Shown piece after piece: positions 20,856 through 29,650 of a stretch of 33,734 nt of DNA; positions within the stretch are counted from its first letter, which is position 1, and each line of letters opens with the position of its first letter. The position numbers and the translations under genes are program-made. The stretch is from Syntrophus sp. PtaU1.Bin005. Its GTDB lineage: Bacteria > Desulfobacterota > Syntrophia > Syntrophales > Syntrophaceae. The notes beneath the pieces are model-generated. The model made no database searches. It was not told where the DNA came from and saw nothing but the letters and a program-made list of their open reading frames with translations. The stretch covers positions 1 to 33,734 of the forward strand of contig MVRU01000024.1 in assembly GCA_002067745.1 (NCBI GenBank), given 5' to 3'.

Positions 20856-21266
20856 TGAAATTTCCTCTATTCAAGACCGGAAGTCAGGAAGGACCCGGAG
20901 TTCTTTCGTGTTCTCACCGGCTGTCTTTCAAAGGCGGCAGCGGAATCGAGATGGCTCCAGTTCCTGTTTCCTATAATGAAAACCGGACGATTTATTAATT
21001 TTATTAAATACCATGTTTAGTTTTCACCAACAACTGAAATTTCCCTCGTCAGGACGGCTCCTCTGCCCTGCGCCGTTGATCGGCTTATGCCCGGATATCT
21101 ATCTCTGCGATGCCATTGACTTTCCAGGGCTTCTTTTCTTATAATATCCGAAATAAGGGATGGTGTTTTTATCTCAGGGAGGAGGGATCCTCTTCATCTT
21201 TCTTGAGGAAATCTCAAGCCTGAGACCAGCCCGGCCGATCGGGCCGGAACCGGAAGGAGCCTCAAG
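20856..21266. other. Divergent intergenic region before the lipoprotein gene
   Basis: About 410 bp without a gene. An AT-rich segment (20985-21015) could hold the promoter of the DAHP synthase-pheA operon, but no clear -35/-10 pair is seen. I found no Phe-rich leader peptide. Near the right end CCCGGCCGATCGGGCCGG is a short palindromic hairpin ahead of the lipoprotein ATG. Confidence 0.35.
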
Positions 21267-22227
21267 ATGAATGCACGTAACACCAAAAGGCATGGCCGGA
21301 AGATCTGTTTCGCCATCGTTTTGCTGGGCGTCCTGATCCTGCTGACGGGTTGCGCAATGACCTCGGCTCGGCCCCAGGGGATCGTCGGCACGGCAACCCT
21401 GCTTGAATCTGAGCGGACTGGCCTGGATCGAGGACGATCTGTTTCTTGGCGTTCACGATACCAAAGGCGGTCGGGAGAAGAATGCACTGCCCCGGGTCAG
21501 CATTGTCCGCCTTCCCAGATCCGAGACCAAGGGGGTCACCTGGAAATCTCCGGAGTTGAAATTTCCCGGACCCGGCGGCTCCGCCAGTGATCTGGAGAGC
21601 GCCAGCCGCATTCCGGGTGGAAGGGGCTTTCTGCTGGTTGAAAGCGGCCAGGCAGGCGAAGAGGCCCGGCGGATCTTCTTTGCACGATATCATGGGGGGG
21701 CGCTGACCATCGAGTCTTACGCATCCTGGCCCGTTCCCGTCGAAAATGTCGAGGCTACCGAGGTCTGCCAGGTCGGGCAGCAACTGGTTTTCCTTTACGC
21801 GGAGCGTGCCGGCGGCCTGCTGTCCACAAAAATCCGCTGGGCGAAACTTTCCCTGGATCCAATCCTGTTCGGGCCATTCAAGGAGGTCACGTATCACGCG
21901 GAAGACCCCGTCGGAATCAATACCCGGCCCATCGTTGCTCTGGCGGTTGACGGCGAGGGCTTCATCTACAGCGCGTCCGCCAGCGATCCTGGAATCGATG
22001 ACGGCCCGTTCCGCAGTGTGGTATGGCAGATCGGGAGGGTCCTTGCCGATCAAGAAGGCAATCCGACGGTCGAGCTGGGCGGGGAAAAACGGTTGGCAAC
22101 CCTGGACGGATTGAAAGTCGAGAGCATCGCCGTCCGCGAAACCAAAGAGGGCGGCAGGCAGATCTTTGTGGGAACGGACGATGAAAACTACGGCGGGATC
22201 ATCCGCCTGCTTCCCGGGGCGCCCTGA
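21267..22227 (+). pseudogene. Lipoprotein gene with one frameshift
   Basis: The first frame begins at ATG 21267 and encodes a lipoprotein signal peptide (FAIVLLGVLILLTGC, lipobox LTGC). It then loses sense near 21400. The remaining 270-odd residues are in the next frame, from about 21403: LSGLAWIEDDLFLGVHDTKG and a long soluble domain ending GGIIRLLPG at 22227. The two parts fit as one surface lipoprotein of about 315 aa if a single extra base is removed between about 21350 and 21403. Blocks such as SGLAWI, the VHDTK strand and LDGLKVESIAVRE suggest a beta-propeller-like fold (DUF3616/esterase-like), function unknown. Because both halves otherwise look intact, a recent mutation or a sequencing error is equally possible. 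Confidence 0.65.
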
Positions 22228-24849: not shown

Positions 24850-25521
24850 TTAATGACCGTGCCCGTGCCCTTCCTGCTTTTCTTCGCCGTAGACCACCAG
24901 CGTCCCGTGTTCCTCCATCTCCTTTAGCCACTTGGGATGCTGCTTTTTAAGCCAGGCTCTCGTCACCCAGCCCGTGGTCATGGCCGGCAGCGATCCGGGA
25001 GATCCTACCGTTCCAAGGTAGAGGTGGATGAAGAAAAAGGCGAAAATCGCCACAAACCCGGCGGCGTGGAGCAGGTACATCAGCCGGACGATCATGGCCG
25101 GAATGCTCAGGGGAAAGAGCATGATCAGACCTGAAAAGACCATGGCCGCCCCGCCAAGCGCCACCACCAGGAAGAACATCTTCTGGCCGGGATTGTACTT
25201 TCCCACCTCGGGAACCTGATCGACATGCCAGAGATAACCGCCCGCGGACTTGATCCAATCCATGTCCTCCGGGAAAACAAAGATCCCCGCCTCTTTCCAC
25301 CACATGCCTATGGCGAAGAAGAGAGAAAGGGCAAAAAAGAGGGCGGTGATGTTGTGGATGTATTTCAACGATTTCAGTCCGCCGAAGGGTTCACCGAGAA
25401 AGTTCAGGGAATGGAACATGATCCCCAGTCCCGAGAAACACAGCACCAGGCATGATATGGCCAGACACCAGTGAACGATTCGTTCAAAGGAGTCCGTGGC
25501 CTGAATTAATCCTTTTCTCAT
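24850..25521 (-). CDS. Formate dehydrogenase, cytochrome b (gamma) subunit
   Basis: Anchors the formate dehydrogenase in the membrane and passes electrons between FdhB and the quinone pool. 223 aa with four hydrophobic helices (about 15-35, 53-73, 115-137 and 146-170). His17, His56, His152 and His166 sit in helices at the positions expected for two heme b groups of the FdnI/FdoI family. The ribosome site (GGAGGGGAA) lies inside the last codons of fdhB, and the ATG is 2 nt past the fdhB stop, so the two are coupled. The C-terminus ends in a short His/Gly tail (GHGHGH) beyond the normal family end, possibly metal-binding. Confidence 0.93.
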   Translation of the reverse strand: MRKGLIQATDSFERIVHWCLAISCLVLCFSGLGIMFHSLNFLGEPFGGLKSLKYIHNITALFFALSLFFAIGMWWKEAGIFVFPEDMDWIKSAGGYLWHVDQVPEVGKYNPGQKMFFLVVALGGAAMVFSGLIMLFPLSIPAMIVRLMYLLHAAGFVAIFAFFFIHLYLGTVGSPGSLPAMTTGWVTRAWLKKQHPKWLKEMEEHGTLVVYGEEKQEGHGHGH

Positions 25522-25523
25522 GA

Positions 25524-26321
25524 TTATTCCCCTCCCTTCGTATCTTGTCCCTGATCTTCATCAGGAAGTTTGGGTCCGTGGATAATGTAATGCAGGAAAG
25601 ACCCCGCAACGACGCCGCCGGCGGCCAGGAGGCTCAACGGTTTCAGGATGTCCTTCCAGAGCACCGTGGTAACCGGCACACTGGGATTCTTCGGCAGGCC
25701 CTCATAAACCTCGGCCTTTTCACCCAGGACATAAATGACATGGGTTCCACCGACGAACTTGTCTCCGTAGACGTTGGCGTCCCCACCAAGCTCCTTTACC
25801 CGGGCATAGGCCTTCTTGATCATAGCGTCCTTGGGGCCGATGGTCAGGGCTCCGGTCGGGCAGGACTTGACGCAGGCGGGCTGCTGGTCCCCCTGGAGGC
25901 GGGTGTAGCAGAGATCGCATTTATAGACCTTGTCCGTCGCCCGGTCATACCGGGGAACATCGAAGGGACAGGCGGAAATGCAGTACTTGCAGCCGATGCA
26001 CTTTTCGTGATGGAGGCCCACGGTACCGTATTCCGTGTGATAAAGGGCGCCACTGGGGCACACCTTGACACAGGCCGCATCGGTGCAGTGCATGCAGCCG
26101 TCCTTCCGAAAGAGCCACTTGAAGTCGCCCTCTTTGGGGGCGTATTCCTGAAACCGGATCAGGGTCCAGGTGTTCCACTGGAGATCCGGCGGATTCTGAT
26201 AGCTCCCCCACTGTTTCGTTCTCAGGCCAGGCATTTCATTCCACTGCTTGCAGGCCACCTGGCAGCCGCGGCAGGCGGTGCATAATGTTGTGTCGATCAG
26301 TTTTACGAATTCAGTTTTCAT
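25524..26321 (-). CDS. Formate dehydrogenase, iron-sulfur (beta) subunit
   Basis: Carries electrons from the molybdenum/tungsten subunit to the cytochrome. 265 aa. Four ferredoxin-type cysteine sets for four [4Fe-4S] clusters are visible: CTACRGCQVAC (C14, C17, C20, C24), CMHCTDAACVKVCP, CIGCKYCISACP, and CDLCYTRL ... CVKSCP. A C-terminal membrane helix (LSLLAAGGVVAGSFLHYII) holds it on the periplasmic face, as in FdnH. It has no Tat signal of its own, so it must be co-exported with FdhA. The ATG lies 10 bp after the fdhA stop behind GGGGGGAGACG. Confidence 0.95.
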   Translation of the reverse strand: MKTEFVKLIDTTLCTACRGCQVACKQWNEMPGLRTKQWGSYQNPPDLQWNTWTLIRFQEYAPKEGDFKWLFRKDGCMHCTDAACVKVCPSGALYHTEYGTVGLHHEKCIGCKYCISACPFDVPRYDRATDKVYKCDLCYTRLQGDQQPACVKSCPTGALTIGPKDAMIKKAYARVKELGGDANVYGDKFVGGTHVIYVLGEKAEVYEGLPKNPSVPVTTVLWKDILKPLSLLAAGGVVAGSFLHYIIHGPKLPDEDQGQDTKGGE

Positions 26322-26331
26322 CGTCTCCCCC

Positions 26332-29300
26332 CTATGCCCTTTCCACGTTTACCATGAACGCCTTGTACTCCGGACAGAAGGTATTGGCGTCACCGACCGT
26401 AGGCGTCAGTAAATTTGTGCTGTCTCCACCGTCCTTGGGGAAGAGCCAGCCGTAATTGAAGGGAAGCCCAACCTGATGAACCGTCTTTCCTTCCACCTGG
26501 AAGGGCGTGAAACGCTTGGTCACCATGGCAACGCATTCCACGGATCCCCGAATGGAGGAAACCTTCACCCGCTGACCGTTCTGGATGCCTTTCTCCTTTG
26601 CCAGGAGATCGCCGATTTCGATGTAGAGTTCCGGCATCGCCTCCAGGAGCCAGGCCTGCCATCGGGTCAGAGCCCCGGAGCACCAGTGCTCCGTGCAGGA
26701 GTATGTCGTGCAGACATAGGGATATTTCTCACTGGCATTGGCCACCTTGTCGAGTTCGCCCTTGAAGATCTCGATGGCCGGATTGATAAGCTGACTCGAC
26801 ATGGGGTTTTTGGTCAGGGGGCCTTCCAGGGGCTCGTAGTGCTCAGGGAAGGGGCCTTCCACCATGCCCGGACCGAACAATGCGCCCACGCCATCGGTCT
26901 TCATGATGAAGGGGTATTTCCCCTTCTCCTTATCCGCCATGGGCGGCCAGGGGCCGTCGGGGACATCTCCGACCCACTTATCGCCGACCCATTCCAGAAG
27001 TTTCCGCTTGGGATTGTAAGGCTTCCCATAGATATCGCAGGAGGCCCGGTTGTAGATAACCCGCCGGTTGACCGGCCAGGCAAAGGACCAGTTGGGGAAG
27101 AGGCCGAGACCCGTCGGATCTTCCTTCCCGCGCTTCATCATCTTGTTCTCGCCGTCGGCGGTGAAGCTCCCCGCCATGATCCAGTTGCCTGAAGAGGTCG
27201 AACCGTCCGCCTGGAGATTGCCGAAGGTCGGTACCAGCTGCCCCTTTTTGAAGGTTGTCGTCGTTCCCTTCGCCTTATCCTCGATGACCGTGTCCTGAAG
27301 GAAATAGCCGTTGATCTGCTTGGACACCTTCAGGGCGTCGAACCGGCCTTTGCTGTCGGTGTAATCCCACTTGAGGTTGAGGATCGGCTCGGGATGAACG
27401 CCGCCCTCCTTGGCATAAAGTTCCTTGACGGCGTCCATGATCTTGAGCGTCATCTCGCCGACGGGAATGGCATCGCCGGGGGCCTCGGCCGCCTTGTACT
27501 TCCACTGGACCCAACGGCCCGAGTTGCTCTGGCTGCCTTCCTTTTCCATGGTGGCGGAAGCGGGAAGGAGGAAAACCTCCGTCTTGATCTTTTTGGGATC
27601 GACACCGGGCCCGCGCCAGAACTCATAGGTCTCGTTGTTGAAAATGTTCTCGCCTACCAGCCAATCAAGCTTCTCCAGGGCCTTCCGGACCTTGCCGGCA
27701 TTCGGGGAACTGACCGCCGGGTCGTTGGCTACGGAGAAGAGCCCCTTGACCTTCCCTTCGTACATCTTATCGAAGAGATGCATGAGGGAATAGGCCACGC
27801 CGTCATCCAGCTTGGGCAGCCAGGGATAGCCGAATTCGTTTTCCGCCGTTGCCTTGTCATCGAACATGGACTTGAGAAAGCTGACGTGAAACTTGGGATA
27901 GTTCGAATAATAGTTGGCCGATTGCGGGTCTTTCGATTCCGGTGTGTACTTATGGAGATATTTTTCCAGCGTATCCAGAGACGCCACGTGCATCTTCAGA
28001 TAACCGGGCAGATTGCCGTAAAGGATGCAGTGGTCCGTTGAACCCTGGACGTTCGGCTCACCACGGAGGGCGTTGATGCCGCCGCCGGCGATGCCCATAT
28101 TCCCCAGAAGGAGCTGGATGATGGCCATGGTCCGGATATTCTGGCTCCCAACGGTATGGTGGGTCCAGCCCAGGGCGTAACATTCCGTGCCCGCCTTGTC
28201 CGGGACACCCGTCGCGCTGTATTCGGAGTAAACCTTGAGCAGATTTTCCTTGGAAACACCGGTAATGCTGGAGACCTTGTCCAGGGTGTAGCGCGAGTAA
28301 TGCGCCTTCAGCATCTGGAAAACGCAGCGGGGATCGCTCAGGGTCATGTCCCGCTTGGGAATGCCCGCGTCGTCCTTTTCGAGGACCCAAGTGTCCTTGT
28401 TGTACTTCCGCTTTTCCGGATCATAGCCGGAAAAGAGACCGTCCTGGAAATTGAAATCGGGTCCTACAATAAAGGGAGCGTTGGTATAATTGACAACGTA
28501 GTCTTTGAAATACTTGTTGTTTTCAATGATGTAATGGATCATCCCGCCCAGAAAGGCGATGTCCGTGCCGGAGCGCAGGGGGACATGGTAATCGCAGCGG
28601 GCCGATGTCCTGGTGTAACGGGGGTCGACGTGGATGATTTTTGCCCCGTTCAGTTCCCTGGCCCGGAGGATCCACTTGAAAGCGATGGGGTGATGCTCCG
28701 CAGCATTGCTTCCCATAATGAGGATGCAGTCGCTGTTCTTGATGTCACAATAATGGTTCGTCATGGAACCGCGTCCGAACGACTCTCCCAGAGCCGCTAC
28801 CGATGGGCTGTGTCAGACCCGGGCCTGGTGGTCGATGTAGACGAGCCCCAGCGCCCTGCACTTGACGCTCATGAGCCAGCACTCTTCATTGTCCACGTTG
28901 GAGCTGCCCAGATGGCCGATGGTTTCACATCGGTTGACAACCTCGCCCTTGGCGTTGGTCTTGACAAAGCCGGCATCCCGGGTGTCCTTCACCAGGCGGG
29001 CGATCCGTTTGAGCGTCCAGTCCCAATCCTTCTCCTCCCACTTGTCGCTCATGGGAGCCCGGTACAGGACTTTTGTGAGGCGGTGCTTGTTCGCCTCTGT
29101 CAGGTCGAAGAAGCCCGCACCCTTGGCGCACAGGGACCCTTCGTTGATGGGGTGGTCGGCGTCCCCTTCAATGTTGAAAATTTTTCCGGTCATCTTGTCC
29201 ACACTGCAGACGAGTCCGCAGCCGACGGAACAGTAACAGCAGATCGTTGTTACCTGTTTTGCCGCCTTGACCCGGTTCATCTTGTTGAGCTCATCTGCGT

Positions 29301-29400
29301 AAGCTCTGGTGGGTTTCAGGTTGATGCCCAGGGTGGATAAGGCAATGCCTGATCCTACAGCGCCGGACAAGTGCAAGAAACCTCTCCTTGTGATGTCCAT
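26332..29400 (-). CDS. fdhA: Selenocysteine-containing formate dehydrogenase, catalytic (alpha) subunit
   Basis: Mo/W-bis-MGD enzyme for formate to CO2 or the reverse, about 1022 aa. An in-frame TGA at 28813-28815 (codon 196) reads as selenocysteine: HQARV-U-HSPSVAALGES, the exact position of Sec196 in E. coli FdnG. Without recoding the gene looks like two frames (26332-28764 and 28813-29478). N-terminus: Tat signal (DITRRGFLHLSG ... AYA), then a [4Fe-4S] site (CCYCSVGCGLVC ... CAKG). The rest is the molybdopterin oxidoreductase body and a C-terminal MGD-binding domain (KVSSIRGSVECVAMVTKRF). ATG 29400 follows AAGGAGGTAGAT and puts the twin arginines in place. The Tat signal makes it periplasmic. 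It lies between fdhE and fdhB. Confidence 0.97.
28780..28815 (-). promoter_or_regulatory. Sec UGA codon and bacterial SECIS hairpin in fdhA
   Basis: The UGA is at 28815-28813. Sixteen bases beyond it the mRNA can form CGGCUCU-GGG-AGAGUCG (28796-28780), seven pairs (one G-U) closing a G-rich loop. The bases after UGA (CACAGCCCAUCGGU) closely resemble the E. coli fdhF SECIS as I recall it. This is where SelB would bind. Confidence 0.75.
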
Positions 29401-29427
29401 ATCTACCTCCTTATGAATATGCCAAAA

Positions 29428-29441
29428 TTGACCTATGTCAC
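29428..29441 (-). promoter_or_regulatory. FNR/CRP-like half-symmetric site before fdhA
   Basis: TTGAC-CTAT-GTCAC, one base short of a perfect TTGAC-N4-GTCAA dyad of the CRP/FNR type. It lies 28 bp before ATG 29400. A possible promoter -35 (TTGACG, 29478-29473, minus) lies upstream, but its -10 is poor (TAGGTA), so fdhA may mainly be read from further upstream. Confidence 0.3.
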
Positions 29442-29650
29442 GCGTGGTATACCTATGTTTTTTTCCTTCCAGCGTCAAGGAAAAAACTCACATTTTGTCA
29501 TGGAAATTCATATGTTATAAAAAATACAATACAAGAGAGATGACGGAAGGAGGATTTCTGGAACGGTTGCTAGATGTCCGTGATGGAAAAAATGAGGGCG
29601 TTCTTTCCTGCGCATTCTGAAGAAATTCCGGTGAGATCTGTCACCGTCAA

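Follow-up and report, generated by a model that had tools for sequence, protein, structure and literature searches.

Does the TGA triplet that interrupts a formate dehydrogenase reading frame in this stretch of DNA (the window, 33,734 nucleotides from Syntrophus sp. PtaU1.Bin005) end a gene, or is it read as selenocysteine (Sec) inside a single one? A mechanical table-11 ORF list splits the frame into two pieces, 28764..26332 (810 aa) and 29478..28813 (221 aa, TTG start), as the earlier note had expected when it spoke of a truncated gene at 26332-28764 and a second ORF upstream. We traced one frame from an ATG at 29400, which has an AAGGAGG ribosome-binding site on its 5' side, to a TAG at 26332; the TGA at 28815-28813 (minus strand) is the sole in-frame stop before that TAG and lies at codon 196, in the context DHQARV-stop-HSPSVAALGES (also DHQARV-stop-HSPSVAALGESFGRG), so that the position and context given in the earlier note are borne out by the frame. 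The features of this frame are:

26332..29400, minus strand: fdhA (fdnG-type), formate dehydrogenase-N alpha subunit, 1,022 aa including one predicted Sec, TAG terminator
28813..28815, minus strand: UGA, predicted Sec codon of fdhA, residue 196, motif U-H-S-P (UHxP)
29323..29400, minus strand: presumed Tat (twin-arginine) signal region, MDITRRGFLHLSG..., the true N-terminus of FdhA, assigned from the sequence and the characteristic motif

In a profile search the product of the whole frame matched TIGR01553 over residues 2-1021 (1422.5 bits; cut-off 814.2), and it is 87% identical, over its whole length, to a homologue from Syntrophus sp. The N-terminal region is one that we take to be a Tat signal from motifs of the form S/T-R-R-x-F-L-K, and the version TRRGFL/SRRGFL is common to the FdhA homologues. 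The upstream ORF, dismissed in the earlier note as spurious, holds the genuine N-terminal part of FdhA, with this signal and a 4Fe-4S motif; the accompanying statement that any standard gene caller would split the gene is right for table-11 ORF finders but not for RefSeq, which annotates E. coli fdnG as one CDS through the UGA. When fdhA was compared with four relatives, dN was 0.07-0.13 and dS exceeded 0.9 on either side of the UGA, and because dN is far below dS in both parts, the two halves behave as one protein under purifying selection. The two apparent ORFs are almost certainly one fdhA gene with its UGA read as selenocysteine, and the annotation is corrected from two ORFs to a single respiratory enzyme, one with a central role in the exchange of formate in syntrophy.

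The neighbouring genes on the same strand complete the picture of the locus:

25524..26321, minus strand: fdhB, four-cluster Fe-S beta subunit with a C-terminal transmembrane helix (FdnH-type), Form-deh_trans PF09163 and Fer4_11
24850..25521, minus strand: fdhC/fdnI, cytochrome b gamma subunit, TIGR01583 145.4 bits (cut-off 115.85), PF01292
29719..30603, minus strand: FdhE-like accessory protein, PF24859 27.9 bits, TIGR01562 56 bits (below cut-off)

The order of fdhA, an Fe-S beta subunit and a cytochrome b gamma subunit is that of the FdnG class of operons; FdhB itself scored 277 bits against TIGR01582, under the cut-off of 334.7. Upstream of fdhA lie FdhE-like, FmdE-like and MoaA genes. A 263-aa ORF at 21262-22053 (minus strand), in a gene-dense region, had no Pfam or NCBIfam match and may not be a gene.

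Codon 196 could be scored in 88 homologues spanning Syntrophales, Desulfobulbia and Desulfovibrionia, at 53-87% protein identity. It is TGA in 82 of them and Cys (TGC or TGT) in the other six, and TAA, TAG or Trp occurs in none of the 88 that cover the site. In Halodesulfovibrio sp. SZUA-473 a Sec and a Cys FDH-N alpha gene adjoin on one contig (L104, 5001-12763). An FDH-N paralogue from a same-genus genome (L030 in G003), with Cys at position 196 and an in-frame TAG at residue 402, was considered as a case of UAG serving as a Sec codon and rejected; it is probably a disrupted or misassembled copy.

The genome to which the window belongs, a metagenome-assembled genome of 165 contigs (99.6% complete, 2.7% estimated contamination), carries a tRNA-Sec (SelC) at 77.4 bits, above the cut-off and called tRNA-SeC with anticodon tca by ARAGORN, a single SelB above the cut-off (370 bits, with SelB winged-helix domains 2 and 3), SelA (608 bits) and SelD (375 bits). 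With selA, selB, selC and selD all in one genome, the organism is Sec-decoding. These are the four genes for which the earlier note had proposed a search, and what it had named as counter-evidence was not encountered: selB and selC are present, and the homologues continue past the TGA. The same genome has four TGA-containing FDH genes. Its selD (L018, C27:31560-32489) is itself a selenoprotein gene, with one in-frame TGA in the motif U-A-C-K and its own hairpin after it.

Directly downstream of the fdhA UGA lies the candidate SECIS element:

28780..28796, minus strand: SECIS hairpin core CGGCUCU-GGG-AGAGUCG (CGGCTCTGGGAGAGTCG), 7 bp, GGG loop

Two weaker pairs, G19-U37 and A18-U38, lengthen the core to 9 bp, and the loop begins 23 nt past the UGA. 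The bSECIS model describes a loop of 3-9 nt, a stem of 4-16 bp and a spacing of 16-37 nt, together with G in the first two loop positions and an MFE of at most -7.5 kcal/mol (PMC13188914); the fdhA hairpin, with its 3-nt GGG loop, 7-9 bp, 23 nt and -9.8 to -10.4 kcal/mol, lies within all of these limits, in agreement with the earlier note, which had described a hairpin with a G-rich loop at SECIS distance. When the peptide was recoded synonymously 5,000 times, 0.9% of the recodings had a helix as long, as well placed and with a G-first loop, and 0.4% had as low an MFE for nucleotides 18-41. Over all 45 nt the MFE was not unusual among these recodings (P 0.48), and folding-energy z for 40-56 nt was not significant against shuffles (-0.2 to -0.7); since the regional value is not significant, we do not base the SECIS claim on energy. 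Rfam at gathering thresholds gave no match, and in a relaxed search the best hit, SECIS_3 with 24.9 against 63 bits, and also SECIS_2 with 18.4 against 70 bits, fell far short of the gathering scores, so the hairpin is not filed under these families. The core helix is invariant among the relatives and hence offers no compensatory change that would support the pairing directly. Two SECIS geometries occur in the window genome: the FDH-F Sec genes (L023 on contig C4 and L024 on C40) have a GGUCU loop, similar to that of E. coli, 18 nt from the UGA, and the FDH-N genes a GGG loop 23 nt after it; the single SelB above the cut-off presumably reads both.

Selection on the RNA sequence of the hairpin is visible at synonymous sites. 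Normalised synonymous entropy had a mean of 0.74 over 500 comparable codon columns and was exactly 0, in 82 of 82 Sec genes, at CAC (197), GCT (203), CTG (204), GAG (206) and TCG (207); the lowest-entropy windows of the entire gene are codons 199-207 and 197-207. At codon 202 the amino acid varies (A, P, S or T) while bases 2 and 3, which are paired in the stem, are fixed. The six Cys genes have different synonymous codons at the hairpin, and their helices are of 2-7 bp, shorter or misplaced, with higher energies; the loss of the hairpin in Cys homologues shows that it is the RNA, rather than the protein, that is constrained. We regard this synonymous-site invariance as the decisive evidence for the hairpin, far stronger than its energy.

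Of 297 genomes sampled from the phylum, 98 contain the exact 20-mer CGGCTCTGGSAGAGTCGTTY and none contains its reversed control. In 31 of the 32 loci checked it follows an in-frame TGA, and in the remaining one (L151 in G075) a TGC: this locus is a Cys-encoding FDH-N with an intact 20-nt SECIS and looks as if Sec had recently given way to Cys, leaving the hairpin as a remnant. The window genome has the 20-mer twice, in the window and in an FDH-N paralogue on contig C28 (56% identical). The exact 20-nt SECIS, of the form CGGCTCTGG[GC]AGAGTCGTT[CT] and present in about a third of the sampled phylum genomes, is a sharp family marker, by which Sec formate dehydrogenases can be recognised in DNA sequence alone.

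Other readings of the locus have to be set against these data. The TGA might be a true stop, a disabling mutation or a sequencing error, leaving a pseudogene or two genes; the table-11 ORF finder does yield two ORFs, and TGA serves as a normal stop in the window as well, where it ends 10 of the 19 gene-sized ORFs. Such a stop would, however, have to recur at one and the same codon in 82 homologues, drawn from many independent assemblies, and never as TAA or TAG, with purifying selection on either side of it and a hairpin frozen at synonymous sites behind it, and we consider it vanishingly improbable. The UGA might instead be read as another amino acid, Trp or near-cognate Cys, without the Sec pathway. 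Low-level read-through of UGA is well known, and Cys stands at codon 196 in six homologues; yet Trp stands there in none, the four genes selA, selB, selC and selD are all present, and the hairpin is kept with TGA and lost in the Cys homologues, which makes this reading extremely unlikely.

It might finally be held that the hairpin is not the SECIS, its nucleotides being kept solely to serve codon choice or the protein, and some other structure being used by SelB. The regional MFE, which is not significant, and the top Rfam match, which is under threshold, would fit such a view, but the freely degenerate sites are invariant only in TGA-containing genes, the first base of codon 202 is free (Ala/Pro/Ser/Thr) beside a paired C and G that are fixed, and the loop is one that the bSECIS model accepts, so that we hold it very unlikely. 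Selenocysteine at the UGA, as the earlier note had proposed, agrees with the machinery in the genome, the exchange of TGA with Cys, the Sec aligned in chain 1h0h_A and the hairpin frozen at synonymous sites.

We are therefore nearly certain of the full explanation, in which fdhA encodes the catalytic subunit of an FdnGHI-type formate dehydrogenase that receives Sec at UGA 196 by way of the hairpin and SelB. By analogy with its homologues, SelA would make Sec-tRNASec using selenophosphate from SelD, SelB-GTP carrying this Sec-tRNASec would bind the hairpin at 28796-28780, and Sec would be placed at codon 196 in place of release factor 2 action. The Sec selenium would then be expected to ligate the Mo or W of the bis-MGD cofactor, and the mature enzyme would probably be exported, periplasmic and membrane-anchored, as homologous proteins suggest.

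A cluster on contig C58 of the same assembly as the window (L114, 144-12242) encodes HdrA, FlpD/MvhD, FDH-F and the alpha and beta subunits of an FDH-N, with no in-frame TGA. Its FDH-N is 77% identical to the window FdhA and has Cys (TGC) at the Sec position, and its FDH-F has Cys at the catalytic position. Sec versions of FDH-N, FDH-F and FlpD all exist at other places in this genome; the Sec counterpart of the FDH-F lies on C4 (71% identical, TGA) and that of the FlpD on C153 (56% identical, TGA in CHW-U). Fifteen loci have both FDH-N and FDH-F, and they are Sec/Sec in 13 cases, Cys/Cys in two (C58 and L070 of Smithella) and mixed in none. Smithella sp. AS10tlH2TH_73 parallels the window genome in having, besides the Cys/Cys locus L070, a Sec/Sec locus L060; none of the papers in the collection searched names both Smithella and selenocysteine. 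In a quick, unrooted LG+G4 tree, the C58 copy joins two Cys copies from Smithella in one fully supported group within the Sec genes, and four changes are needed for the six Cys rows; the Sec-to-Cys direction agrees with published work (PMC1794560). A search of three same-genus genomes did not turn up the Cys FDH-N copy of C58, and the contig may have been binned in error. Its tetranucleotide correlation with the window is 0.91, a value that does not decide on contamination, and its FdhB shares 86% identity with the window FdhB and 75% with that of Smithella L070; being nearer to the window, it speaks for the same genus.

Judged from gene sequences, C58 is plausible as a selenium-independent backup module. 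That the window Sec fdhA is half of a selenium-dependent/-independent pair, with C58 as a coordinated backup that arose when an entire gene neighbourhood changed from Sec to Cys, is a tentative suggestion that we think rather unlikely to be correct; if true, the C58 cluster would back up formate metabolism under selenium scarcity. Selenium-regulated Sec/Cys FDH pairs occur in Treponema primitia and paired Sec/Cys isoforms also in Acetobacterium woodii (PMC6288185), and sets of Cys isoforms are described in Methanococcus maripaludis (PMC2933860). Sec and Cys copies of the same enzyme in one genome are common to these three organisms and to the window genome; theirs belong to a different FDH branch.

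Among known systems, the closest in organism is Syntrophus aciditrophicus, for which 19 selenoproteins, including four FdhA, were listed in 2006 (PMC1794560). The window genome is from the same or a very near genus and likewise has four TGA-containing FDH genes, and differs in the additional Cys-only FDH-N/FDH-F cluster. The closest proteins with solved structures are selenocysteine-containing Desulfovibrio formate dehydrogenases, whose chains match FdhA over nearly the full length (1,268 and about 1,245 bits). In the best solved relative, the tungsten FDH of D. gigas (1h0h_A), the letter X is a modified residue, Sec, and aligns with residue 196 of the window protein; many other matched chains, 6sdr, 8bqg and 8cm4 among them, bear the title 'alpha subunit, selenocysteine-containing'. 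Compared with these enzymes the window operon adds a cytochrome b gamma subunit, which makes it FdnGHI-like and presumably membrane-anchored. The fdnG of E. coli K-12, 46% identical to the window FdhA in protein sequence, is of the same TIGR01553 family, with the UHxP motif, the fdnGHI gene order and a hairpin directly after the UGA, and in RefSeq its in-frame stop is likewise codon 196, as the earlier note had stated. Its hairpin, GGUAGCAAGUCUUGCUCC, has a GUC loop about 4 nt nearer to the UGA, in contrast to the GGG loop of the window (GGC in relatives) 23 nt after it. No selenoprotein is more widespread in bacteria than Sec-containing FdhA (PMC13188914), and the fdhA of the window is an ordinary further example of this well-known phenomenon.
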